64,000 nt of DNA from Capsulimonas corticalis (GTDB lineage: Bacteria; Armatimonadota; Armatimonadia; Armatimonadales; Capsulimonadaceae): NCBI RefSeq assembly GCF_003574315.2, contig NZ_AP025739.1, positions 4,650,001 to 4,714,000 of the forward strand, written 5' to 3'. The stretch's first letter is position 1; the number at the start of each line of letters is the position of its first letter. Shown here in pieces: positions 48,964 to 64,000 of the stretch. The translations under genes and the position numbers were made by a program. The notes beneath the pieces were generated by a model, which was given only the letters and a program-made list of their open reading frames with translations, made no database searches and had not been told where the DNA came from.

Positions 48964-49136
48964 ACCTTTCACCCTCATCCTCCGTAAAAATTGACTGGCG
49001 ACTCTTTCAAAAACAGAACGCGCTTTGCCTTGGAACGAGGTAAACTCTCATGGTCGAACCAAAACTGTACAATCAGTGGGTTTAATCCGAGTGCGATTTG
49101 TTTTTGAAAAAGTTTTTGTACGGAGGATTGTCTAGA

Positions 49137-51554
49137 ATGAACAAACGATGGCCGAGTATCTCGGCCGTGTTGCTGTTGTCTTCGACGGCGGCGCTCACGC
49201 CGATGAGTGCGTTCGCCGCCGACGCTCTGGCCGACGCGCCCCGCGCGGCGGTGATGCTGCAAACGGATTTTCCGGTTTTTGGAGTTACCGGCCGGGTCTC
49301 CCCGAAGGCGATCGCCGCAAATCTCACCGCCGCCGGCGTCCCTGCCGATCTGCTGGACGCCAAGGCGCTGGCCGATTCCGGGCGACTGAACGCCAAGCGC
49401 TACGCCGTTGTGGTGCTCCCGTACGGAAATAACTTCCCGAAAGCCGCCTTTGCTAACTTGCAGGACTTCCACCACGCCGGCGGCAGCTTCGTGCTGACCG
49501 GTATTCCCTTCACGCATCCCATCCAGCGCGTCAAAGACAAAAAGGGGAATGAGTCCTGGTCCGACATGGGGCACAACCACGACGCCGCGCTGTTTGGTCC
49601 CGATGGGATCGGCGTCGGCGGGTTCACGGAGCCCTCCGAGCAGGACACAAGCCTTGCCGCGAGTGATCCGCTTGGGCTGAAGGTTTTGGGACGCACCTGG
49701 TCGGGTCGAACCCAGATGATGGACCCCAGCACTCTGCCGGCGGAAGATCAGGTGATTCCGATTCTTGTTCAAGGGACGCTGCCCGTCGCCGCCATGATCG
49801 TGCATAACGACGCCGCCTACAAAGGCGCGGTCGATGTCTGGACGACACACCCCGATACGGGCGACTTAGAGGCGTATGATACCGAGCAGATGATTACGCG
49901 CGGCGTTGTCGCGATCCTCGCGCAAAAGAACCTGCTGCCCGCCGATCGCGTGCAAACGGCCTTCGACAGCCTGACGAATATCCCGAAGCCCAAGCAGTAC
50001 GCTAACTTGGAGCTGCCGACGCCTCCGCGCCCTTATGAGACGTTTCAGCCGCGCAGCAATCCGCCCGCCGAGCATCTCTACGTCGCTGATGTGCGCAAGA
50101 TCAAGCCCGAAGAGCGACTGCTGCTCAGCTCCCTTCAGGGAATCGTCAACCGCAAGCAGCCGCGCATCTATCTGCTGTTCCGTGACAGCGACGTATTCTG
50201 GCTCAAGCAGCTGCAAGCCCAGGGAACGACGGGATCTACCCACAAGGTGAAGAACCCTCTTTCGCTCCTGAAAATCTTCAAAGACGATTTCCAGGGCGCC
50301 GTGGTCACCGATCCAAACGTCTATGTCACGCCCCATGTCGCGGTGGACATCGCCGGACTGGAAGATCAAGTGATCGCGACTCCGGAGCTCGCCCAGCGGC
50401 TCAAGCTGGACATCAAAACGGACCTGCGCGGACGCTTCAAAGATGACGCCGACGCTTACAAATATGTCCGCACGGAGCTGCTGCCGCGTCTCAATCCCTA
50501 TCTGTCCATTTCGCTGGACGCGCCGCTGGACTCGGGCGCGATCGATCAGATCATCCAGGCGCGCGGCCTGGCGCTCTGGGTCACCGGACCAAAGGAGCAG
50601 GAGAAGCCCGGCGCGAACGAAAATGCGGAGGTCGCGGAGATCGAGGCGATGTTCGCGCAGCTTCCGCTCAACGCGGTGGTGCGCGGCTACTGGTACAGCG
50701 GCGGCGACAGCAATGGTCTGGACGAAGGCCCGGGCGTCTCCCTGGCGTCACGCTTCGGCAAAGTCACCGTTGTCTCAGATTACGTCTCGAACTTCTCCGT
50801 CTTCAGCGGCGCCCCGGCGAAGACCCGCACGCAAAAGCGCAACCCCGCGCCGGCGTTCGATCCCACTAAGGTCTATGTCGCGGTGACCGTTTCCGACGGC
50901 GATAACCTCTGCACGTGGCAGAATAACTTCCAGGATTACTTCAACGATCCGCTGCACGGCACGTTCCCCATCGGCTGGGGCATGGGGCCGACGCTGCTGG
51001 ACTGCGCTCCGAACATGGTGCAGTGGTACTACGACCACGCGACGCCCAATGACGAGTTCTTCTGCGACGTGAGCGGCGTGGGCTACATCTACCCGCCGGA
51101 CTGGGCGAAGTCCCTCAAGGACCGTGACGGCGCGCTAAGCTCGTTCTTCGGATGGACGGCGAAGTATATGGACATGCTGGACATGAAGACCATCCGGCAT
51201 ATGAACGTCCGCGCGACCGACATCGCCGAGATGGGCCGCGAGCTGCCGAACACCAAATTCTTCGTTCCCGACTACGGCTACGCTGGCGAAAAGGGCTACG
51301 ACGCGATTACCTATCCGCTGCCCACCGGCCAAACCGTCTTCCGGACAATCACCGACGGCAATCCGCGTGAAATGGCCGCCCAAATCAAAAACCGTGTCGG
51401 CGACCGCCGCCCGGCGTTCGTCAACGCCTTCATTGTGAACTGGGGAAATAGTCTCAAGGATATCAAGAAGGGGCTGGACGATCTGGGGCCGGGGTACGTG
51501 GCTGTGACGCCGTCGCAGCTAAATGACTTGTACAATCAGGCGAAGGGGAAGTAG
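49137..51554 (+). CDS. secreted GxGYxYP-domain protein
   Basis: 805 residues from ATG 49137 with CGGAGGA upstream. A signal peptide (SAVLLLSSTAALTPMSAFAA) is followed by ~280 residues of a glutamine-amidotransferase-like fold (VVVLPYGNNFPKAAFANLQD; HHAGGSFVLTGIPF). The second part holds the GxGYxYP domain: an N-terminal piece near ~320-440 (LLLSSLQGIVNRKQPRIYLL) and the core with VAVTVSDGDNLCTWQNNFQD, PIGWGMGP and the name-giving SGVGYIYPPDW near residue 645. The family is linked to polysaccharide processing in other bacteria but is biochemically poorly known. A 14-bp hairpin follows. Confidence 0.82.
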   Translation: MNKRWPSISAVLLLSSTAALTPMSAFAADALADAPRAAVMLQTDFPVFGVTGRVSPKAIAANLTAAGVPADLLDAKALADSGRLNAKRYAVVVLPYGNNFPKAAFANLQDFHHAGGSFVLTGIPFTHPIQRVKDKKGNESWSDMGHNHDAALFGPDGIGVGGFTEPSEQDTSLAASDPLGLKVLGRTWSGRTQMMDPSTLPAEDQVIPILVQGTLPVAAMIVHNDAAYKGAVDVWTTHPDTGDLEAYDTEQMITRGVVAILAQKNLLPADRVQTAFDSLTNIPKPKQYANLELPTPPRPYETFQPRSNPPAEHLYVADVRKIKPEERLLLSSLQGIVNRKQPRIYLLFRDSDVFWLKQLQAQGTTGSTHKVKNPLSLLKIFKDDFQGAVVTDPNVYVTPHVAVDIAGLEDQVIATPELAQRLKLDIKTDLRGRFKDDADAYKYVRTELLPRLNPYLSISLDAPLDSGAIDQIIQARGLALWVTGPKEQEKPGANENAEVAEIEAMFAQLPLNAVVRGYWYSGGDSNGLDEGPGVSLASRFGKVTVVSDYVSNFSVFSGAPAKTRTQKRNPAPAFDPTKVYVAVTVSDGDNLCTWQNNFQDYFNDPLHGTFPIGWGMGPTLLDCAPNMVQWYYDHATPNDEFFCDVSGVGYIYPPDWAKSLKDRDGALSSFFGWTAKYMDMLDMKTIRHMNVRATDIAEMGRELPNTKFFVPDYGYAGEKGYDAITYPLPTGQTVFRTITDGNPREMAAQIKNRVGDRRPAFVNAFIVNWGNSLKDIKKGLDDLGPGYVAVTPSQLNDLYNQAKGK

Positions 51555-53458: not shown

Positions 53459-53740
53459 TTAATCCTCTTCCGCTTCATCGTCGCTTTCGGGCGCCATTGG
53501 GCTGCCGGCCAGACGTTTCGCCAGCGTTTCCTGGGACAGCGCCGAGGTGGCGAGATTGCCGCCTTCGAGAAAGATCAAGCTTTTTGTCTTACGACCCTGC
53601 GTGGCGTCGATCAGTCGGCCGGCTTTGCGAAATTCTTGTACGAGGCGCCGCATCGGCGCCGAATCGCTGGAAACAAGTGCGATAACTTTGTCGATAATTA
53701 CGTAGTTATAGAAGCCGACATTGAGTGCAACGGGCTGCAT
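53459..53740 (-). CDS. remA: RemA-like DUF370 regulator
   Basis: 93 residues from ATG 53740 with AAGGAG upstream; the frame goes on upstream but the family begins here. The conserved pattern is clear: ALNVGFYNYVIIDKVIALVS, SDSAPMRRLVQEFRKAGRLI and DATQGRKTKSLIFLEGGNLA. RemA is a small DNA-binding protein that activates matrix and osmoprotection genes in Bacillus; in other phyla it is little studied. It is the first gene of remA-gmk-coaBC. A promoter with extended -10 lies about 100 bp upstream. Confidence 0.9.
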   Translation of the reverse strand: MQPVALNVGFYNYVIIDKVIALVSSDSAPMRRLVQEFRKAGRLIDATQGRKTKSLIFLEGGNLATSALSQETLAKRLAGSPMAPESDDEAEED

Positions 53741-53842
53741 GCGTAGCTCCTTAACGAAGGGACCGGAAAAAGTGATGGAGTTCGCGCCAAACAGGCCGGC
53801 CGCGGTCAACCGTGCAATCGCTGAATGAAAGAACGCTGACAG

Positions 53843-53872
53843 ATTATAGCATGCGCGGAATCGGCAAGTCAA
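53843..53872 (-). promoter_or_regulatory. promoter of remA-gmk-coaBC
   Basis: TTGACT (53872-53867), 18 nt, TATAAT (53848-53843), with TGC directly before the -10 box (extended -10). The leader is about 95 nt. Confidence 0.75.
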
Positions 53873-54052: not shown

Positions 54053-57000
54053 ATGATGATCCGTCGCCGCGCAGCACGTAAGGCGCCGCGCCTGCTGACA
54101 TTGTTGGGGTCTCTGTTATTTTTGCTGTCCAGCATCGCGGCTGTCTCCGGTCAGACCGGAAGCGATAAAGTTCAGGTTGATCCTGAGGCGAAGCGCAACT
54201 ATCGCAGTCTATCCGATTCCGTGCAGCCGGCGCGCCTCGCCGCGTCCGTTTCCGATCTGAGCGGCATCCATTACGCCATGCCCGCCGCGCCGGGCGGTCC
54301 CGCGCTTGTCGCGAACTCCCGCGCCGCCGGCACGCCCGGCGCCGATCAAGCTCGCGACTACGTGCTCGCGCAGTTCCGGACGATCCTCGGTGCTGGGAAC
54401 GTGCATCAGGAAGACTTCGCCGTCACGGCGCCGGTGGACAACGGCGCCAGCATCACGGCGGGCGGGCGCAGTTATGGTCTCCGCGCGCTCTGGCCGAATC
54501 TTGTCCGCACCTCCACGCTTCCCAAAGACGGCGTCACCGGGCCGCTGATCTACGCCGCGCGCGGCGATCTGGCCGCGTTTCGCGGGCAGCAGGTCGAAGG
54601 CAGCGTCGTCCTGATGGACTTCAACTGCGGCGCCGCCTGGATGAACGCCGCGCGCCTTGGGGCCAAGGCCATCATCTTTGTGGAGCCGGCGGCGACGATG
54701 CGCGGCGAATCTGAAGCGAAGTTCATCGGCATTCCCGTCTCCATTCCCCGGTTCTGGGTCTCGCACGCCGACGCCGCCGCGCTGCAATCGGCGGCGCTCA
54801 CGACGCCGAATTTCACCGTCACCGTCTACGCGGACAATCCCTGGGAGACGCGCAGCGCCTCAAATATCGTCGGCGTGCTGCCCGGCTCCGATCCCGTTCT
54901 GAGCAAGCAGATCGTCGTCATCGAATCCTATTACGATTCGATGTCGGTAGTGCCGTCGCTGGCGCCCGGCGCCGATACGGCGTGCGGCGTCGCGGCTCAG
55001 ATCGAGCTGGCGCGTCTCTTCAAGGCCAACCCGCCGAAGCGCACCGTCTGGTTTGTGTCCTGCGGAGCGCACTTCCTGGGAATACAAGGCGCGCGCGCTT
55101 ATGTGGACCGGCATTTGGACGAGTGGCGGCAGCCCTCGAACTGGGACCGCGCCAAGCACTGGCTGACGGGCGGTCGGTCGCCAATTCCGGCGAACCGCTC
55201 CGAGGTGCTTCTCTTCAGCGGCCTCGATCTCACCTCCCAGACCAACAGCTTTGCCGGCTTCTACAAAGGCTACTTCTACGACTTCACGGAAGGCGACGTA
55301 CAGAGCGGTTATTCGGACATCGGACGCGCGCTGCGGGAGAACGCGGAGAAGATCGCGCAGGTGCTGGGGCTGAACGCCCAGAGCGCCTATGGCGACGGCA
55401 TCAATCCGATCGGCGGCAAGGGCTGGCGCAACTTCCTGCCGGGCCACTTCGCGTTTGACGCCGAAGCGGCGGCGATGGCGGGCGGCAAGGGCATTACCTT
55501 CGCCACCACCGACGACGCGCGGCAGCACAGCGATACGCCGTTCGACCGCATGGCGGACGTGAACCTCGCGAATCTCACCCAGCAGACCAAGTTCCTTGCC
55601 TGCGAATACTGGCACCTTCTGAACGACACCAACGATCAGGACGCCGTGACGCCCGGAAGCACGCGCGGCCTGATGCCCGTGACTGAGTGGCCGGCGTGGA
55701 CTCGTCAGGGGCTGCGTCTGGGCTTCTGCCAGGTCAAGGGCCGCGTGTTGATCTTCGATCCCAAACAGAACTTCGTTCCGGACACGCCGGTGGCGGACTC
55801 GCTGGCGGTGGCCGCCAACCCGTCGAAGACGATGGTCGGCGTGCGCGGCAACCTGATCCAATCCACGTTTACCCCGCCGGGCGCGTCAAAGCCCGGCTCG
55901 AACTACAACTTCTACGGTCTGCCTCTGGTGACGTCGGCGGGAACGGGGCTCCGGTTCGCTCCGGCGATGACGATGCGCTTCGGCGCCTATCACGTCCATA
56001 CGACGGACGATGCGCAGGGCAGCCGGGGCGATATCGATTTCGCGCCGGACCAGGGTCTGAACGGAACCTCCAACTATCCGATTGAGTTCAATCTGACTTC
56101 GGATAGCAAGGATACGCAGATCATCGTCTTCCCATGCGTCGCGACCACGATTTACGACCTGCTGGACCTTTCCTCGCTGATCTCGCTCTCCGGCGTGCGC
56201 GTCTTCGACGGCGCCACCAACAACGAGCCCCGGCAATACGGCTTCACGCTGGCTGGAACCGAGCCGGGCGTTTCCTACGTGGAAGATGTCGCGGTGCTCT
56301 TTTCCGCGCAGGGCTCGGACACCCGCCTGAAGGTCGTGATGGACTCCGGGCCGGGCGCGGTGCGGTTCCTGCTCATTAACGCGCTGCCGCCGGATCCGAA
56401 GCTTTCGAATGCGGAGAACCAGAAAAGGGCGCAGGGCCTGGGGTACGCCGTGCAGGGCGGCGCGAGCGGAGGCGGGGACAATATCGTCCACAACGGAGCG
56501 ATCACGAACACGGCGCTGCGCGTGGCGCAGGATATGTGGAACCTGGATGAGTATCGGATCAGCCAGCTCGCCAAGTATCGGATCACGAACGATCTGCTCA
56601 GTAATCCAAAGCATACCGGGCTGCACGATCTCGCCAAGGTTTATATGGACCAGGCGCAGGCGGCGTACGCGCAGCGCGACTATGAGATGTTCGACGCTAA
56701 GAGCCGGCAGGCCTGGGCGTTCGAGGCGAAGGTTTACCCGCAGGCGCAGGCGACGGCGAACGATGTCGTTCAAGGCGTCATCTTCTACCTCTTCCTCCTG
56801 ATCCCGTTTGCTTACTTTCTGGAGCGGCTGCTCATCGCCTCGCACGATCTGAAGATGCAGCTGGTCTGGTCGTTCGGCATCTTCGCCCTGATCTTCTTCA
56901 TCTTCTCGAAGATCCATCCGGCGTTCGATATCACGATCAACCCGATTATCGTTCTGATCGCCTTCGTCATGCTGGCGCTCTCGGTGATTGTCTCGCTGCT

Positions 57001-58861
57001 GGTGTGGGGCAAGTTCGAAGAGCAGATCAAGGCGATGCGCCAGACCGTCTCGGGAGTACACAAAGTGGATGTCGGCAAGGGCTCGATCGCCTTCGCCGCT
57101 TTCGCGCTCGGCATCTCCAACATGCGCCGCCGCAAAGAGCGCACGATGCTGACCTGCATTACGCTAATCCTGCTGACCTTCACGGTCCTCTCGTTCACCT
57201 CGGTTGTCAATTACAACCGGCCAAACGATGTCCCCGCGCCCGGCGTCTCCCCGTACAATGGCATCCTCCTGCGCATGCCGGCGTGGGACGCGCTTCAGGA
57301 TCCGGCTTATCGTCTGCTGAACGATGAGTATGGCCGCAAATATCCCGTCGCGCCGCGCGCCTGGTTCTTCGGGACCACGCAGGGCCAGCAGAGCTTCCTG
57401 AATGTATCCCGCGCGCAGTCGCCGGTGGATCTCAAAGGCGTAATCGGCATGGCGCCCGCCGAAGCGCGGGTCTCGCATATTGACACGGCGCTGGCGCTGG
57501 GGCCGGACGGGAAACCGATGGGGCGCTGGTTCGACTCCACAGATTCCTACAGCATCATTTTGCCGAAGCCTATCGCGGACACCCTGGGCGTCACCGCCGC
57601 CGATGTCGGCAAGATCACCGTGAACTTCAGCGGCGTTCCCTATCTGGTCATCGGCGTGATCGATCCCGCCAAGTTCTCCGCGCTGAAAGACCTGGACAAT
57701 GAGACGCTGACGCCGGTGGACTTTCAGGACGCGCACAACCAGTCCAACTCGGCCTCGGCGTCCACGAGCAGCTTCCAGGACTATTCGCATATCGATCCCG
57801 CCACCGTCATCATCGTGCCTTACGCCACGCTGATCAACCTTGGCGGCGATCTGCGTTCGGTCGCGATCAACTTCGGCGACGCCGCGACGGTCAATCAGCA
57901 GCTCGTCAGCCTGATGCCGCGTCTGGACTTGAACCTCTACGCCGGCGAGGACGGACATAACCACCGCTTCTCCATCCGGTCGGCGACGAAGTCCGAGGGG
58001 CTGGCGACGATCATCATCCCGATCCTGATCGCCTCCTTGATCGTTCTGAATACGATGCTCGGCTCCGTCTTCGAGCGCGTCAAGGAGATCAAGACGTTCT
58101 CGGCGATCGGTCTCTCGCCGTCGAATATCGGCATGCTGTTCATCGCCGAAGCGATGGTCTATGCGATCATCGGCGCGGTCTCGGGATACTTGATCGGGCA
58201 GGGACTTTCCAAGGTCATCAGCACGTTTAATATCCTGCCGGGGCTTTCACTGAACTTCTCGTCGACGTCGGCGGAGATCGCCATCGGCGTCGTCATCGCG
58301 GTCGTCATGCTCTCCACGATCTTCCCGGCCCGCAAGGCGTCGCAGGTCGCGACGCCCTCGACGGACCGCACCTGGAAGCTGCCCGATCCCGACGGCGATG
58401 TCTGGAAGATCGCGCTGCCCTTCGCGGTCACCGGCGATCAGGCGCGCGGCATCAACGGCTTCCTGTCCGAGTGGTTCAAAGAGTACGAGCAGCAGTCCGT
58501 CGGCGACTTCCTGACACACGGCATCAGCACAACCACATATGACAGCGAATACGGTCTGGCGTACCGCCTGAGCTGCCGGATCTGGCTGGCGCCGTTCGAC
58601 CTGGGCGTCTCGCAGGATATCTCGCTCGACACCATCCCCACGGACCTGGAAGATATCTTCGACGTGCGGCTGACGATTACCCGGCAGTCCGGCGAAGTGG
58701 CGAACTGGATGCGCGTCAATCGCCGCTTCGTCAACGTCGTGCGCCGCCAATTCCTGATCTGGCGCACGCTGTCCGAAGTGCAGCGCCAGCGATATTTGAA
58801 CCCGGAAGTGGAGCTCGTGCGAACGCCTTCCGAGAGCGCGGCCGTGGCGCCGGCGATTTGA
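54053..58861 (+). CDS. M28-peptidase-like/FtsX-permease fusion protein
   Basis: 1602 residues. A signal or anchor segment (LLTLLGSLLFLLSSIAAVSG) is followed by a PA-like insertion (~150-270) and an M28-like domain (~275-510). The M28 metal sites are altered: HxD is IESYYDSMS, the GADD segment is GADTACGVAA, and the EE motif is CGAHFLGIQGA; the last histidine is kept in RQHSDTPFDRM. A large soluble region follows to ~900. Membrane segments lie near 905-930, 940-957, 965-990, 1028-1050, 1319-1340, 1360-1382 and 1406-1425. The last four, with a periplasmic loop between the first two of them (~1055-1315), match an FtsX/MacB permease (NTMLGSVFERVKEIKTFSAI). Residues 1430-1602 form an unrecognised C-terminal domain. 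No ATPase is fused; one is at 63541. Confidence 0.82.
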   Translation: MMIRRRAARKAPRLLTLLGSLLFLLSSIAAVSGQTGSDKVQVDPEAKRNYRSLSDSVQPARLAASVSDLSGIHYAMPAAPGGPALVANSRAAGTPGADQARDYVLAQFRTILGAGNVHQEDFAVTAPVDNGASITAGGRSYGLRALWPNLVRTSTLPKDGVTGPLIYAARGDLAAFRGQQVEGSVVLMDFNCGAAWMNAARLGAKAIIFVEPAATMRGESEAKFIGIPVSIPRFWVSHADAAALQSAALTTPNFTVTVYADNPWETRSASNIVGVLPGSDPVLSKQIVVIESYYDSMSVVPSLAPGADTACGVAAQIELARLFKANPPKRTVWFVSCGAHFLGIQGARAYVDRHLDEWRQPSNWDRAKHWLTGGRSPIPANRSEVLLFSGLDLTSQTNSFAGFYKGYFYDFTEGDVQSGYSDIGRALRENAEKIAQVLGLNAQSAYGDGINPIGGKGWRNFLPGHFAFDAEAAAMAGGKGITFATTDDARQHSDTPFDRMADVNLANLTQQTKFLACEYWHLLNDTNDQDAVTPGSTRGLMPVTEWPAWTRQGLRLGFCQVKGRVLIFDPKQNFVPDTPVADSLAVAANPSKTMVGVRGNLIQSTFTPPGASKPGSNYNFYGLPLVTSAGTGLRFAPAMTMRFGAYHVHTTDDAQGSRGDIDFAPDQGLNGTSNYPIEFNLTSDSKDTQIIVFPCVATTIYDLLDLSSLISLSGVRVFDGATNNEPRQYGFTLAGTEPGVSYVEDVAVLFSAQGSDTRLKVVMDSGPGAVRFLLINALPPDPKLSNAENQKRAQGLGYAVQGGASGGGDNIVHNGAITNTALRVAQDMWNLDEYRISQLAKYRITNDLLSNPKHTGLHDLAKVYMDQAQAAYAQRDYEMFDAKSRQAWAFEAKVYPQAQATANDVVQGVIFYLFLLIPFAYFLERLLIASHDLKMQLVWSFGIFALIFFIFSKIHPAFDITINPIIVLIAFVMLALSVIVSLLVWGKFEEQIKAMRQTVSGVHKVDVGKGSIAFAAFALGISNMRRRKERTMLTCITLILLTFTVLSFTSVVNYNRPNDVPAPGVSPYNGILLRMPAWDALQDPAYRLLNDEYGRKYPVAPRAWFFGTTQGQQSFLNVSRAQSPVDLKGVIGMAPAEARVSHIDTALALGPDGKPMGRWFDSTDSYSIILPKPIADTLGVTAADVGKITVNFSGVPYLVIGVIDPAKFSALKDLDNETLTPVDFQDAHNQSNSASASTSSFQDYSHIDPATVIIVPYATLINLGGDLRSVAINFGDAATVNQQLVSLMPRLDLNLYAGEDGHNHRFSIRSATKSEGLATIIIPILIASLIVLNTMLGSVFERVKEIKTFSAIGLSPSNIGMLFIAEAMVYAIIGAVSGYLIGQGLSKVISTFNILPGLSLNFSSTSAEIAIGVVIAVVMLSTIFPARKASQVATPSTDRTWKLPDPDGDVWKIALPFAVTGDQARGINGFLSEWFKEYEQQSVGDFLTHGISTTTYDSEYGLAYRLSCRIWLAPFDLGVSQDISLDTIPTDLEDIFDVRLTITRQSGEVANWMRVNRRFVNVVRRQFLIWRTLSEVQRQRYLNPEVELVRTPSESAAVAPAI

Positions 58862-58895
58862 GTGACTTACCCATGGCTTCCGCGTGCTCCCTAGC

Positions 58896-59160
58896 AAACC
58901 CACCCCCGGCCTTCGGCCGATTCCTCCCTCGGGCGGCAAGGGTTGGTAGGATAGCCTCTAACGCAAACTGCCTGCGATAACACACTCTGAAATAACCCTT
59001 CCCGTCGGCGGGAGGGGTGGCCCGCAGGGCCGGGGTGGGTTTGCCCGGGAGGGGTCGCGCGTAGCGCGGGGGGAGGTAGGACCAGAGGGCAGCGCGAAGG
59101 CCGTGGGTAGGTCACCCGGGAGGGGTGGCCCGCAGGGCCGGGGTGGGTTTGCGCGGGGGT
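58896..59160. repeat. block of degraded inverted repeats
   Basis: It begins with AAACCCACCCCCGGCCTTCG and has at least three copies of GGCCCGCAGGGCC-type and GGGGTGGGTTTG units in inverted and direct orientation, related to the element at 30248. The gap 58862-59256 holds no gene apart from this block and the ribosome-binding site of the next gene. Confidence 0.75.
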
Positions 59161-59256
59161 GGGCGACCTCTGCTGGGATCGGCCCTCAGAGCTCGGGGCG
59201 TCCTCAAAAGATTTTACAATAGCCGCGAGTGAGACGAGAAGGAGAAACCACGAACC

Positions 59257-61317
59257 GTGGCGTTTTCAAGACAGGCGAATAAAGGCGGACGGGCGGCGGC
59301 GCGGGATGAGATGTCCGATGCGCGGGCGCGCGTCGAAGACGCCGCGGAGTCCGAAGGCGGCGGCGGGGCGCCGCAGTTCGAGGAGGGGTTCACCGGCAAG
59401 GTGATGATCGGCACGCTGTTCGTGTGCCTATTCATGCTGCCGGGCGCGATCTATCTCGGGCTGGTGGCGGGGCAAAGCCTGGGCGCGGCGGCGCAGTGGG
59501 TGACGATCGTGCTCTTTTCGGAGGTGGCGCGGCGATCGTTTATGCCGCTGAAGCGGCAGGAGATCTATTGCCTCTTCTATATGGCGGGCGCGCTGACGGT
59601 GACCGGATTTACGGTGCTGCCGGGCGTTTCGGGCGGGCCATTTGGCGGCTTGATCGGAATGCAGTTCCTGATGCAGTCGCCGGCGATGCACGCCGTCGCG
59701 GAAAAGCTGCCGCACTGGATTGCGCCCCATTTGGGATCGACGGCGTATACGAACCGCAGCCTGCTCGACAAAGACTGGTACCTGCCGCTGCTCTGGTCTC
59801 CCGTCCCGATTTTGATATTCACGCAGATCCTGGACCGTATGAAGTGGATGGGCCTGGGCTATCTGCTGTTCCGCGTCACGTCCGATATCGAGCGCCTGCC
59901 GTTCCCCATGGCCTCCGTCGCCGCCTCCGGCGCGACCGCGCTCGCCGAGGCGTCCACCAAGGAAGAGTCCTGGCGCTGGCGCGTCTTCTCCGCCGGCACC
60001 GTCATCGGACTGATCTTCGGGTTCTTCTATCTGGCGATCCCGATCTTCACGGGCGTCGTGTTCTCGAAACCGATCCAGCTGCTGCCGATCCCGTTCTTTG
60101 ACTTTACGAACAACGTCGAACGGATCCTGCCGACCTCGCTGGTCGGTTACAATCCGGACCTTGGGGCGCTGCTGATCGGCTTTGTGCTTCCATACTCCGT
60201 CGTGAAGGGAAGCGTCATCGGCTCCGTCCTGTCGCAGATCGTCGCCAACCCGATCCTGCACCACTACGGGATGTTCCCGAACTGGGTGAGCGGCTCGCCG
60301 GCCATCCAGACCAAGATCTCGGTGGATGTCGACTTCTGGATGTCGTTCGGCATCGGGACACAGATCGCCGTCGCGCTGATCGGCATCGGGTCGGTGCTCT
60401 TTATGGTCATCCGGTCGCGCGGTCAGGCGGAGACGGCGCAGCGCGGAAGCCTGGCGAAGGTCCCCAAGGGACGCGGCGACTTCCCGTGGTACGCCGCGCT
60501 GGGCGTCTGGCTGCTGGCGACGCTCGGCTATGTCGTGATGAACCATCAGCTCATTCCGGCGTTTCCCATCTGGATCATCGCCTTCTTCGGTCTGGTGTGG
60601 ACGCCGATCTATTCGTATGTCTCGGCGCGCATGCTGGCGCTGACGGGGCAGTCGATCGACTTCCCGTTTGTCAATCAGCTGGTTGTTCTGGGCACGCACT
60701 ATACTCAGCCGGATATCTGGTTCGCGCCGCTGCCGCTCAACAACTACGGCGCGCAGGCGCAGAAGTTCCGCGAGATCGAACTGACGGGAACGAAGTTCAG
60801 CAGCATTCTCAAATTAGAGATGTTTATGCTGCCGCTAGTGCTGATCTTCAGCCTTGTGTATTGGGGCTTTTTGTGGTACACCAACGACATCCCTTCGGTG
60901 CAGTTCCCATACGCGCAGAAGTTCTGGCCGCAGTATGCGGTGACGCAGGCGATCTGGACGCAGATCAACTCCGTGGGCGGCGCCAAGTGGGCGCTCCATG
61001 TCATCAAGCCCGATTTGATCGGGATCGGCGGCGCGAGCGGCCTGGCCTTGTACGGCTTGACCAAGCTGCTGGGGCAGCCCGTTTCGTTCTTCTACGGATT
61101 TATCGCCGGCATGAGCAATTATCCGCACAATACGATCCCGACATTTGTCGGCGCATGGCTCGGCAAGAAGGTCTTCGCGCGCAGCTTCGGCCAGGAGCGC
61201 TGGCAGCTCTACGCGCCCGTTCTGCTCGCGGGCTTCTCCTGCGGCACGGGACTCATCGGCATGTGCGCCATCGCGCTGGCGCTGATCAGCAAGACGGTCT
61301 CGTATCTGCCTTTCTGA
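59257..61317 (+). CDS. DUF6785/OPT-like polytopic membrane protein
   Basis: 686 residues from GTG 59257, with AAGGAG upstream. A soluble acidic N-terminus of ~45 residues precedes about 14 membrane segments (MIGTLFVCLFMLPGAIYLGL; IFGFFYLAIPIFTGVVFSKP; LLIGFVLPYSVVKGSVIGSV; FYGFIAGMSNYPHNTIPTFV; LLAGFSCGTGLIGMCAIALA). Its shape recalls oligopeptide transporter (OPT)-like membrane proteins and the DUF6785/DUF6784 group seen in Planctomycetota-type genomes. It has no ATPase motif and no obvious catalytic residues. It opens the run of genes up to the LolD-type ATPase; the gap to the fusion gene is 395 bp. Confidence 0.7.
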   Translation: MAFSRQANKGGRAAARDEMSDARARVEDAAESEGGGGAPQFEEGFTGKVMIGTLFVCLFMLPGAIYLGLVAGQSLGAAAQWVTIVLFSEVARRSFMPLKRQEIYCLFYMAGALTVTGFTVLPGVSGGPFGGLIGMQFLMQSPAMHAVAEKLPHWIAPHLGSTAYTNRSLLDKDWYLPLLWSPVPILIFTQILDRMKWMGLGYLLFRVTSDIERLPFPMASVAASGATALAEASTKEESWRWRVFSAGTVIGLIFGFFYLAIPIFTGVVFSKPIQLLPIPFFDFTNNVERILPTSLVGYNPDLGALLIGFVLPYSVVKGSVIGSVLSQIVANPILHHYGMFPNWVSGSPAIQTKISVDVDFWMSFGIGTQIAVALIGIGSVLFMVIRSRGQAETAQRGSLAKVPKGRGDFPWYAALGVWLLATLGYVVMNHQLIPAFPIWIIAFFGLVWTPIYSYVSARMLALTGQSIDFPFVNQLVVLGTHYTQPDIWFAPLPLNNYGAQAQKFREIELTGTKFSSILKLEMFMLPLVLIFSLVYWGFLWYTNDIPSVQFPYAQKFWPQYAVTQAIWTQINSVGGAKWALHVIKPDLIGIGGASGLALYGLTKLLGQPVSFFYGFIAGMSNYPHNTIPTFVGAWLGKKVFARSFGQERWQLYAPVLLAGFSCGTGLIGMCAIALALISKTVSYLPF

Positions 61318-61333
61318 CGGCTGGGCAAGAAAA

Positions 61334-62371
61334 GTGCTTCTCGTGAATACGATCTCGGAAACAGACGCCGCCCCGCAAGCCCCGATTCGGACGCCAAAGG
61401 GCTGGAAGCGGGTGGGGTGGCAGGGCGTGACGGCGAATACGCCCGACGCCTGGAATTTGGCGGCGTATGGCGGGGACGCGCGCGTCGGCAATATCCGTAT
61501 CGATAATGGCGAGACGGCGGGGAACGCCGTCATGGGAGTCGAGATCCGCTGGTCCCGGCCCAAGAAAGCCCTATCCGCCGCCGACCTGGAGAAGCGGCTG
61601 GATCAGTATCTGACGAGCGTCGATAAGGGCGCCAAGAAGCAGAAGCTGTCCGCCGACACGAAGAGCAAGCCGCTGGAGGATCGCCGTTTTCCGGTGCGCA
61701 CGGCGCGGTCGTTCCACTGGCGCGTGGACCGCAAGGGCGTGGGCCGTATCTGGCATTGCGCCGAATGCGGACGTCTGATGATCGCACAGGTTGTCGGCGC
61801 GGCGAAGGGCGATTTTCAGCATCTGGCGCATGACGTGCTGGCGTCCCTGGAGTGCCACTCCGCCGACCCCGCCTGGCGTCCGTGGTCGCTGTATGACCTC
61901 CATACGGAGGTTCCGGCGGACTTTACGCTCAAAGGCAAGCCGCAGCTTCTGAATATCTACGTGCAGCTCGCGTTCGAGCGCGCGGGGACGACGGATCTGG
62001 TGACGGTGGAGCAGTGGGGCGTGGCGAGCGTGCAGCTGCGCAACGCCTATCTGGACGAGTGGTTTCAGGAGAAGAACAGCGCCCAGGAGTCGTCGCTTCG
62101 CTATCAATCCGAGGAAACGACGATCCATGGTCACACGGCGCTGGCGATGACCGGCCGCCGATGGGGACTGACGTACTGGGGGGCGCAGGCGATCCCGCAG
62201 CTCACGAGACTTCAGCTGCCCGCGATCCATTACGCCGCGCGAATTTGGGAGTGCCCGGAGACAAATAAGATTTTTCTGATTCAGAGTTATACACGCCGCT
62301 TGGATCCCACGCTGGTGGACCGGATCGTGGAGCGGACCGTTTGCCATCCCGTTCCGGAAGAGGCGTCATGA
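61334..62371 (+). CDS. hypothetical soluble protein in the PqqD/FtsX locus
   Basis: 345 residues from GTG 61334; GTG 61343 is an alternative. No signal peptide or membrane segment is visible. The start has GWKRVGWQGVTANTPDAWNL, then WSRPKKALSAADLEKRLDQY. The HCAECGRLMIAQVVG segment near residue 140 holds a CxxC pair that may bind metal. A second half resembles the first (DLHTEVPADFTLKGKPQLLN; AFERAGTTDLVTVEQWGVA), so it may be a two-domain duplication. No family was recognised. Its stop overlaps the PqqD gene start (ATGA). Confidence 0.65.
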   Translation: MLLVNTISETDAAPQAPIRTPKGWKRVGWQGVTANTPDAWNLAAYGGDARVGNIRIDNGETAGNAVMGVEIRWSRPKKALSAADLEKRLDQYLTSVDKGAKKQKLSADTKSKPLEDRRFPVRTARSFHWRVDRKGVGRIWHCAECGRLMIAQVVGAAKGDFQHLAHDVLASLECHSADPAWRPWSLYDLHTEVPADFTLKGKPQLLNIYVQLAFERAGTTDLVTVEQWGVASVQLRNAYLDEWFQEKNSAQESSLRYQSEETTIHGHTALAMTGRRWGLTYWGAQAIPQLTRLQLPAIHYAARIWECPETNKIFLIQSYTRRLDPTLVDRIVERTVCHPVPEEAS

Positions 62372-62892
62372 AACAGGGACGTTTTTCCGGACTGGCGGAG
62401 TACCTGCCGTTTTTGCGCGAGCGGAAGCCGCCGCTGACACGGGAGGAGATGCTGCGCCTGAGGCCTCTGCGCCGCAGCGTCGTCACCTGGACCACGAAGC
62501 CGCAGGACGCGAGTGGCGACGAGGATGTCTCGGAAACGCCCGATCCACTGGTGGTGCTTTCCGCGCCGCGCACGATGGGGCCGCTAACGCGCTGGGTGAC
62601 GCGCCTGCTGAGCGCGCCGGTGGATCGGCGCGTCGAGCTCGATGAATACGGCTCGGCCATCTGGACCATGTGCGACGGGACCCACACCGTCCGCCAGCTC
62701 GCCGATTTTACCAGCGCCAAGTACAAGCTGAACAAACGCCAGGCCGAGGTCAGCGTCCTGGCCTTTATGAAGATGCTCGCGCAGCGCGATCTCATTGGAT
62801 ATCATACGGAAGGAAAGAGGTCCGCTCATGTCCGACCCAACTCCGGCGGCGCCGCGCAACGGTCACGCTCCGGTTCCCGCCGCCGCCATTAG
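62368..62892 (+). CDS. PqqD-domain protein
   Basis: 174 residues from ATG 62368 with GGAAGAGG upstream, overlapping the previous stop by 4 nt. Residues ~60-145 match the PqqD (RiPP recognition element) fold: RRVELDEYGSAIWTMCDGTH, then TVRQLADFTSAKYKLNKRQA and EVSVLAFMKMLAQRDLIGY. The N-terminal ~60 residues are charged, and the last ~30 are basic and Ser/Arg-rich (AAQRSRSGSRRRH). PqqD domains bind peptide leader sequences for radical SAM enzymes. No radical SAM partner or precursor peptide is seen in the window. The last 65 bases overlap the FtsX gene. Confidence 0.75.
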   Translation: MKQGRFSGLAEYLPFLRERKPPLTREEMLRLRPLRRSVVTWTTKPQDASGDEDVSETPDPLVVLSAPRTMGPLTRWVTRLLSAPVDRRVELDEYGSAIWTMCDGTHTVRQLADFTSAKYKLNKRQAEVSVLAFMKMLAQRDLIGYHTEGKRSAHVRPNSGGAAQRSRSGSRRRH

Positions 62893-63508
62893 CAAGCCGG
62901 TGAATAAAAAACAGATCAACCTGCCCTGGCGCAAGGCCGTTGAAATCGCGATGAACTCGCTGAAGATCCGGTTCTGGCGCTCGCTGATCACGGCCGGCGG
63001 TATCTTTCTTAGCATCGCCTTTCTTTGCTTTTCCCTGGCGACCTTGTGGCTCCAGCAGAAACCGACCGATCCCGATCTGATGGCGGATTACCACCAGGCC
63101 GTCTATCGGCAGATCTGGCTGGTCGTGATGTCGGTGCTCGTCTGCATCACAGGGATCACGAATTCGATGCTGATGTCGGTGGCGGAGCGCTTTCGGGAGA
63201 TCGGCACGATGAAGTGCCTGGGTGCGCTGGACTCGCTGATCGTTCGGCTGTTTTTGATCGAAGCGATGTTCATGGGTGTCGTCTCGTCGTTCGGCGGCTG
63301 GGTGTTGGGAGTGCTGACCGTGGCGCTGGTCCGATGGGCGACGCTCGGATGGGCCGTGGGCGTCGGCGCGGTCACGCCGCTGATTATCGGCAAGCTCTTT
63401 TTCTGGTGTATCGGCTCTGGAGCGTTCCTGACGGTGATCGCCGCGTTGCTCCCGTCCGTCCGCGCCGCGCAGATGCCGCCCGCCGCCGCGCTGCGCAGCG
63501 ATGTCTAA
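62828..63508 (+). CDS. minimal FtsX-type ABC permease
   Basis: 226 residues from ATG 62828 with AAAGAGG upstream. About four membrane segments are seen: SLITAGGIFLSIAFLCFSLA, QIWLVVMSVLVCITGITNSM, FGGWVLGVLTVALVRWATLG and LFFWCIGSGAFLTVIAALLP. The FtsX/MacB signature NSMLMSVAERFREIGTMKCL and the closing PSVRAAQMPPAAALRSDV are clear. The periplasmic part between TM1 and TM2 is only ~25 residues, whereas MacB and LolC/E carry a large domain there. It lies directly before the ATPase gene and is likely its partner, alone or with the giant fusion permease. Confidence 0.85.
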   Translation: MSDPTPAAPRNGHAPVPAAAISKPVNKKQINLPWRKAVEIAMNSLKIRFWRSLITAGGIFLSIAFLCFSLATLWLQQKPTDPDLMADYHQAVYRQIWLVVMSVLVCITGITNSMLMSVAERFREIGTMKCLGALDSLIVRLFLIEAMFMGVVSSFGGWVLGVLTVALVRWATLGWAVGVGAVTPLIIGKLFFWCIGSGAFLTVIAALLPSVRAAQMPPAAALRSDV

Positions 63509-63540
63509 ACTCTTTCTCGTTCACGATATCGGAGAACCGA

Positions 63541-64000
63541 ATGGCCGCAACAGAGTATATCGTCCGCACCAAGGACGTCGTCAAGATTTACAAGCTGGGG
63601 GATGAGGTCCTGCGCGCGCTGAACGGCGTCAGCGTCGATATCAAGCGCGGCGAGTACATCTCGATTATGGGCCCGTCGGGCTCCGGAAAGTCCACGCTGT
63701 TCAACGCCATCGGCGGCCTGGACAAGCCCGACAGCGGCAGCGTCTTCATCAACGATGTCGATATGGCGCAGCTCGACGCCGGCGAACTGGCGTACCTGCG
63801 CTGCCATACGATCGGCTACATCTTCCAGACGTTCAACCTCATCCCCGTCATGACCGCGCTGGAGAACGTGATGCTGCCGACGATCTTCGCCGGTATGCCC
63901 TCCGAAGACGGCACGAAGCGCGCCCTGGAGCTGCTGGACATCGTCGGCCTCGGCCACCGCCGCGATCACAAGCCGACCGAGCTCTCCGGCGGCCAGCAGC
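63541..64000 (+). CDS. LolD/MacB-type ABC ATPase (truncated by the window edge)
   Basis: 153 residues are seen; the frame runs off the edge. ATG 63541 has GGAG 6 nt upstream. YIVRTKDVVKIYKLGDEVLR is the usual start; Walker A is IMGPSGSGKSTLFNAIGGLD, the Q-loop IGYIFQTFNLIPVMTALEN and the signature ELSGGQQ sits at the last bases. The ETFNL-type loop is typical of LolD/MacB/FtsE ATPases that power FtsX permeases without moving the substrate through the membrane. Walker B and the H-loop are outside the window. It follows the minimal FtsX gene by 32 nt. Confidence 0.92.
   Translation, partial: MAATEYIVRTKDVVKIYKLGDEVLRALNGVSVDIKRGEYISIMGPSGSGKSTLFNAIGGLDKPDSGSVFINDVDMAQLDAGELAYLRCHTIGYIFQTFNLIPVMTALENVMLPTIFAGMPSEDGTKRALELLDIVGLGHRRDHKPTELSGGQQ

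Follow-up and report, generated by a model that had tools for sequence, protein, structure and literature searches.

Six genes on one strand at the end of the window

We analysed a gene cluster at the end of a 64,000-nucleotide stretch of the Capsulimonas corticalis genome (Armatimonadota; contig NZ_AP025739.1, positions 4,650,001 to 4,714,000 of the forward strand), which we call the window. Open reading frames (ORFs) and Pfam matches place six genes here, all on the plus strand, in the order GIANT-OPT-SOL-PqqD-FTSX-ATPase, and together they very likely form one functional unit driven by a type VII ATP-binding cassette (ABC) engine. All six had been proposed by a first-pass annotation and are present as described. 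Window position 64000 cuts the ATPase gene, and its remainder was read from the genome contig. Beyond the completed gene lie a terminator-like hairpin and then a convergent gene, so the operon ends at the ATPase.

GIANT (54053-58861, +) encodes a 1602-aa fusion of peptidase-like and permease domains, OPT (59257-61317, +) a polytopic membrane protein, and SOL (61334-62371, +) a protein with two tandem PsbP/Mog1-like domains. The ORF of the PqqD-domain protein opens at 62341; its gene most likely spans 62368-62892 (+), starting at an ATG that follows GGAAGAGG and overlaps the SOL stop codon as ATGA. The FTSX ORF opens at 62795, and the most likely gene (62828-63508, +) starts inside the PqqD gene. 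The ATPase gene (63541-64293, +; 250 aa) ends 293 bp beyond the window. With these starts the spacings from GIANT to ATPase are +395, +16, -4, -65 and +32 nt; the last four agree with the first-pass observation that the five genes after GIANT overlap or are closely spaced. Since five relatives from the same family have only 29-111 bp between GIANT and OPT, the 395-bp gap looks secondary. Within it lie two exact copies of a G+C-rich 30-bp repeat (59010-59147, no strand; starts at 59010 and 59118), probably a secondary insertion. Near 30.3 kb the repeat turns up again, there in the form of an inverted pair (30267 and 30373). A RemA-like (DUF370) gene (53459-53872, -) runs divergently upstream of GIANT, and a putative GxGYxYP glycoside hydrolase gene (49098-51554, +) lies further upstream.

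Domains and folds of the encoded proteins

GIANT begins with a signal/transmembrane (TM) segment, followed by a PA plus pseudo-M28 region, three extra TMs at about 902-983, an FtsX core and a conserved C-terminal domain. Hydropathy gives seven TMs besides the N-terminal segment and divides the core into TM1 (about 1034-1052), an extracytoplasmic region of about 265 residues and TM2-4 (about 1317-1418). Pfam models for M28 (PF04389, 42.4 bits, cut-off 21.3), PA (PF02225, 26.2 bits) and FtsX (PF02687, 52.2 bits, cut-off 25.5) all match. Profile searches of the PDB found M28 aminopeptidases (3e-25), transferrin receptor, nicalin and nicastrin for the N-terminal side and MacB, YtrF, LolF and LolC for the C-terminal side; in addition, the MacB_PCD model matches one Poribacteria ortholog at 29.3 bits. 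An insert in the Poribacteria protein that by eye resembled LysM was not confirmed by Pfam. In 13 loci, mostly from Omnitrophota and TA06 (within L122-L161), a short TPR lipoprotein gene stands directly upstream of GIANT.

The metal-binding residues of M28 and the catalytic Glu-Glu pair, at the positions that we take from family knowledge to be the canonical ones, have disappeared from the window protein and from almost every one of 116 homologs. In most of them Tyr replaces the His of the AHYDS-type motif, Glu replaces the bridging Asp, His-Phe stands for the Glu-Glu pair and Asp for the final His. Judged by this family-wide loss, the M28 domain is a pseudo-enzyme. One could otherwise picture GIANT as a working M28 peptidase, bound to the membrane, which degrades outside peptides and feeds them to OPT as an importer, with FTSX-ATPase as regulator; the M28 fold scores above its Pfam cut-off and the partner has an OPT fold, but the missing ligands led us to reject an active protease, and this scheme is highly improbable. 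Conserved Tyr, Glu, His and Asp residues (293, 308, 340 and 494) stand where the ligands were lost, and because Glu308, His340 and Asp494 are themselves conserved, the former active site may be reused for ligand binding. Transferrin receptor, nicalin and nicastrin have a PA/M28-type fold without peptidase activity that serves binding or gating; unlike GIANT, these pseudo-peptidases belong to eukaryotes and have no ABC permease attached.

FTSX is a minimal permease of about 226 aa with four TMs, and its size gap to GIANT has no counterpart among the LolCDE permeases. It matches PF02687 (51.5 bits, cut-off 25.5) and, in PDB profile searches, MacB, LolF and YtrF. According to the alignment it lacks an extracytoplasmic domain in most lineages. 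Large TM1-TM2 insertions occur in the FTSX proteins of L054 (12420-13712), L060 and L061, and Pfam finds SLBB domains in the L054 loop. Such domains are known from polysaccharide export proteins. The ATPase is of the LolD/MacB class and retains intact motifs, read in the sequence as GPSGSGKST, LSGGQQQRVAIARS and IVLADEPTGNLD (Walker A, signature and Walker B). Clusters of the Verrucomicrobiota type (L093-L110) have two ATPases that differ consistently after Walker B, the first reading DEPTANLD and the second DEPTGNLD; both look intact. A 612-aa ATPase fusion in L063 is only apparent, as the ORF spans a masked stretch of N.

OPT gave no match when its profile was run against PDB sequences, so we tested its fold by structure prediction. 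The AlphaFold model (pLDDT 83.9) matched barley Yellow Stripe 1 (YS1; 7wst) in Foldseek with an E-value of 4.8e-11 and TM-scores of 0.57/0.64, and below E 0.001 it matched only barley YS1 structures. The earlier label, DUF6785/OPT-like, therefore stands for the OPT fold and falls for DUF6785. The window protein has no Pfam match to either OPT (PF03169) or DUF6785 (PF20581); PF03169 matches 2 of 39 orthologs (best 8e-6) and PF20581 none of these 39 operon-type members, for which we rejected an identity with DUF6785. Five PF20581 matches in the wider set are the five added members of OPT2, a distant OPT paralog (DUF6785/6784) that occurs in other versions of the cluster and shows weak profile similarity to the window protein. 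OPT2 adjoins GIANT in L081, L083, L084, L086, L096, L098 and others, sometimes with OPT also present; its loci come from several Armatimonadota, Sumerlaeota, Verrucomicrobiota and Phycisphaerae. Unlike OPT/YSL and DUF6785/6784 proteins, the window OPT goes unseen by both Pfam models and is inherited together with an ABC system.

Sequence models gave no match for SOL. Its AlphaFold model (pLDDT 92.5), searched domain by domain in Foldseek, matched TplEi, PsbP, Tsi3, LpqN and EagT6 (E 9.9e-5 to 0.03, probability 0.92-1.00). The first-pass annotation had called it a soluble unknown: neither a TM segment nor a signal peptide was seen by sequence and hydropathy, in keeping with a soluble protein, and the tandem PsbP/Mog1-like fold means that "unknown" no longer applies. 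Each half carries conserved Cys and His residues (CxxC...H; C...CH) that could bind metal. Among its structural kin, Eag chaperones are described in two reports as stabilising TM segments of secreted effectors (PMC7773334, PMC12881460). The fourth protein matches PF05402 (40.8 bits, cut-off 23.4) as well as TbiB1 and PqqD in PDB profile searches, and falls under the cut-off in the NCBIfam PqqD models; on these matches it has a true PqqD domain. The operon contains no radical S-adenosylmethionine or other modification enzyme, and no gene for pyrroloquinoline quinone or for a ribosomally synthesised and post-translationally modified peptide.

Recurrence and joint inheritance of the gene set

We searched 84,980 species-level genomes with a GIANT alignment and found 512 relatives. 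The titles of the 80 loci that were kept come from eight named phyla: Armatimonadota, Sumerlaeota, Verrucomicrobiota (including Kiritimatiellae, Lentisphaerae and Spartobacteria), Hydrogenedentota, Planctomycetota, Omnitrophota, Poribacteria and TA06. Most of these are metagenome-assembled genomes, and in a few cases (Firmicutes UBA5435, Vermiphilus) the label may be in error. The cluster ranges well beyond the Armatimonadota. Plasmid searches with GIANT and OPT gave no match.

Among 40 sampled loci, the gene order of the window recurs across many Armatimonadota families. Variants include FTSX-ATP-GIANT-OPT in some Armatimonadota, GIANT-OPT-SOL-PqqD-ATP in Poribacteria, and OPT2-GIANT-OPT-FTSX-ATP-PqqD-ATP, with two permeases and two ATPases, in Verrucomicrobiota and Sumerlaeota. 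We counted adjacency in 125 distinct GIANT loci: OPT or OPT2 adjoins GIANT in 69 of the 84 with room on both sides, and where at least 7 kb lies downstream (86 loci), 32 carry the full set and 45 both FTSX and ATPase.

Presence and absence of the genes follow the same pattern. A survey of 151 Armatimonadota genomes found GIANT in 124 and OPT in 120, with both in 120, GIANT only in 4 and neither in 27, an agreement in 147 genomes (Fisher P = 6e-26, uncorrected for phylogeny). The GIANT-only genomes are G144 and G150, in which GIANT reaches the contig end, and G060 and G094; G068 and G097, which carry a divergent cluster of the Verrucomicrobiota type, were counted as positive. Neither SOL nor an FTSX ortholog was found in any of the 27 GIANT-less genomes (0/27 each). 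Because these include members of families that also hold GIANT-bearing genomes (f1, with an incomplete assembly, f2, f7, f14, f18 and f31; the rest belong to f4 and f36), repeated joint loss of the gene set is suggested. LolC/E-like genes follow no pattern of co-presence and co-loss like that of FTSX and SOL.

The first-pass annotation had named scattering of these genes as evidence against a common system. They are indeed scattered in some lineages, yet the core set is still found in those genomes, and this supports one unit. Fourteen Armatimonadota genomes without FTSX downstream of GIANT have one FTSX ortholog each, scoring 203-287 bits, whereas paralogs reach no more than 91 bits; the window genome likewise has a single ortholog (290 bits, next match 91 bits). 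FTSX lies just upstream of GIANT in two of the fourteen (G009 and G132) and is truly apart in the other 12, all of which (12/12) have one ortholog elsewhere. SOL is found in 13 of the 14, and PqqD-FTSX-ATPase usually remains a trio in Armatimonadota. One FTSX ortholog elsewhere, beside an ATPase, also occurs in 7/7 genomes from Poribacteria, Omnitrophota, TA06 and those labelled Vermiphilus. Poribacteria with a large GIANT belong here: their FTSX and ATPase are separate, elsewhere in the genome, and we rejected a fusion of FTSX into GIANT because its profile matches only GIANT's own FtsX domain. Another permease outside the window as constant partner of the minimal FTSX, which the first-pass annotation had also named as contrary evidence, did not turn up: FTSX is flanked by PqqD and by an ATPase of its own. 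In two of these genomes (L225 and L226; Omnitrophota and TA06), an oppB-oppC-oppD-oppF peptide-import set leads straight into FTSX-ATPase, with both on one strand, and no other genome looked at from that group has it there.

Chance is excluded, since the order recurs and the genes are jointly present or absent. That the six are housekeeping neighbours without a joint function would accord with their scattering in some genomes, but the order is kept across phyla, the genes share presence and loss, and they overlap translationally; we give this explanation almost no credence. GIANT, OPT, FTSX and ATPase occur more generally than PqqD and SOL do, and SOL, which was not found in the tested Omnitrophota, TA06 and Sumerlaeota genomes, is therefore accessory.

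A candidate type VII complex and its alternatives

Three features place the system in the type VII class: the four-TM core of the FtsX/MacB kind, an ATPase of the LolD/MacB class with intact motifs, and the TM1-TM2 extracytoplasmic domain of GIANT. From this family membership, it is well supported that the system works like a type VII engine. Type VII systems described in the literature work on partners outside the cytoplasm. MacB-class proteins use ATP cycles for movement on the far side of the membrane and do not transport through themselves (PMC5985334); ATP-driven conformational coupling without passage through the permease would, by analogy, apply here as well. The curated models of the known members all missed their cut-offs: LolCDE (lolCE 39.4 bits, cut-off 362.45; LolD 231.7, cut-off 307.75), MacB (FTSX 41.7 and ATPase 222.9 bits, cut-off 966), FtsEX (FtsX models at most 28.5 bits, cut-offs 225-255; FtsE 197.9, cut-off 264.85) and YbbA (208.5 bits, cut-off 336), for which the ten-TM permease is lacking too. 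We found no description of this combination of parts in the open-licence PMC literature searched. For these two reasons we take the system as a variant within the type VII ABC kind, and the claim holds up that this is a conserved, apparently undescribed ABC system of the envelope, in which two FtsX permeases of unequal size accompany a single ATPase.

Likenesses to each relative are partial. Like MacAB-TolC, the system has a MacB-like permease core and ATPase, but its ATPase is unfused, its two permeases are unequal, no MacA-like gene is among the six and the operon has no MacA/TolC-type gene. It shares with FtsEX-EnvC, which transmits movement without transport, an FtsX domain and an FtsE-like ATPase; the operon has no EnvC or peptidoglycan hydrolase gene. 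In E. coli YbbAP-TesA, a type VII engine with a related ATPase works with an extracytoplasmic hydrolase (PMC12646458). There the hydrolase is separate and active and YbbP has 10 TMs, whereas in the present system a dead hydrolase-like domain forms part of the permease and the partner has an OPT fold.

LolCDE resembles the system in its envelope location and in that a single ATPase, of the class found here, goes with two dissimilar FtsX-type permeases. It differs in lacking a pseudo-M28/PA region and three extra TMs as in GIANT, a permease without extracytoplasmic domain, and OPT and PqqD partners. As an alternative, GIANT and FTSX could take the parts of LolC and LolE in a lineage-specific relative or replacement of LolCDE that frees lipoproteins, or some other substrate with a lipid anchor, from the inner membrane, with OPT and PqqD as auxiliaries. 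This would suit the LolF/LolD class of the permease cores and ATPase. LolC/E-like permeases are missing in many of 23 Armatimonadota genomes checked (the window genome, G000, plus 22 others). In the window genome no LolC/E-like match reaches E <=1e-30, and such genes are somewhat rarer with GIANT (3/12 vs 7/11, P = 0.10). Nevertheless, several genomes lack both and several have both, so that LolC/E-like genes are not complementary to GIANT, for which we rejected Lol replacement as the leading explanation. Healthy lineages have also lost GIANT time and again, which would not be expected of an essential Lol system, the operon has no LolA-like gene, and every curated Lol cut-off is missed. We consider such a replacement quite unlikely.

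On balance we favour, with some reserve, a heteromeric type VII complex of a giant and a mini permease with an OPT-fold partner and cytosolic adaptors. FtsX cores contact the ATPase in MacB and LolCDE, and by analogy those of GIANT and FTSX would do so too; that the two pair on the ATPase is likely. One ATPase gene accompanies two permease genes in Armatimonadota and two accompany two in clusters of the Verrucomicrobiota type, numbers that fit a heterodimeric permease. In the proposed stoichiometry, one ATPase homodimer would bind the cytoplasmic faces of both permeases, and its ATP cycles would move the large extracytoplasmic region of GIANT. The pseudo-M28/PA domain would not cut but would bind or position a peptide-like or amphipathic ligand, which may be moved through or next to the OPT-fold protein and be either taken across or held. 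PqqD, and SOL likewise in Armatimonadota and Poribacteria, would handle this ligand as cytoplasmic adaptors or chaperones. A bolder version has the engine physically energise or gate the OPT-fold protein, turning a secondary transporter into an ATP-driven one while PqqD and SOL deliver or receive peptide-like cargo in the cytoplasm; we regard this coupling as doubtful. A peptide-like substrate is itself a tentative suggestion, and so is the role in handling peptides or lipids that the first-pass annotation proposed for PqqD and the OPT-like protein.

Several observations weigh against the complex as proposed. In the Fimbriimonadaceae-like family f14, GIANT, OPT and SOL-PqqD-FTSX-ATPase occupy separate loci, and orphan GIANT copies without an adjacent OPT occur in several lineages. 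Two ATPases of this type occur in Poribacteria, the first within the GIANT operon and the second beside FTSX, so that the partnership may be less strict. The ATPase could instead serve two homodimers. The peptide idea draws on domain analogy (M28, OPT and PqqD) and on the opp set in only two related genomes, and the SLBB domains in one FTSX may point to carbohydrate instead. Separate loci, the second poribacterial ATPase and the orphan GIANT paralogs would also suit two independent, co-regulated devices, namely a homodimeric FTSX-ATPase engine with PqqD and a separate GIANT-OPT pair with another ATPase or none. We judge this unlikely, as both modules are present or absent together, GIANT has an FtsX core of its own that needs an ATPase, and fused operons recur in distant phyla. 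The genes shared near the orphan GIANT copies of f14, which encode a hydrolase-like and a prepilin-like protein, were not numerous enough to support a conclusion.

In summary, an apparently undescribed type VII ABC system recurs in several phyla and brings together parts apparently unreported in combination: a dead M28 domain fused to an FtsX permease, a mini permease, an OPT-fold protein and a PqqD protein. Should these form one complex, a mechanotransmission ABC engine would in this case be coupled to an OPT-type transporter, and many envelope genes now labelled "unknown" in little-studied bacteria would gain a function.

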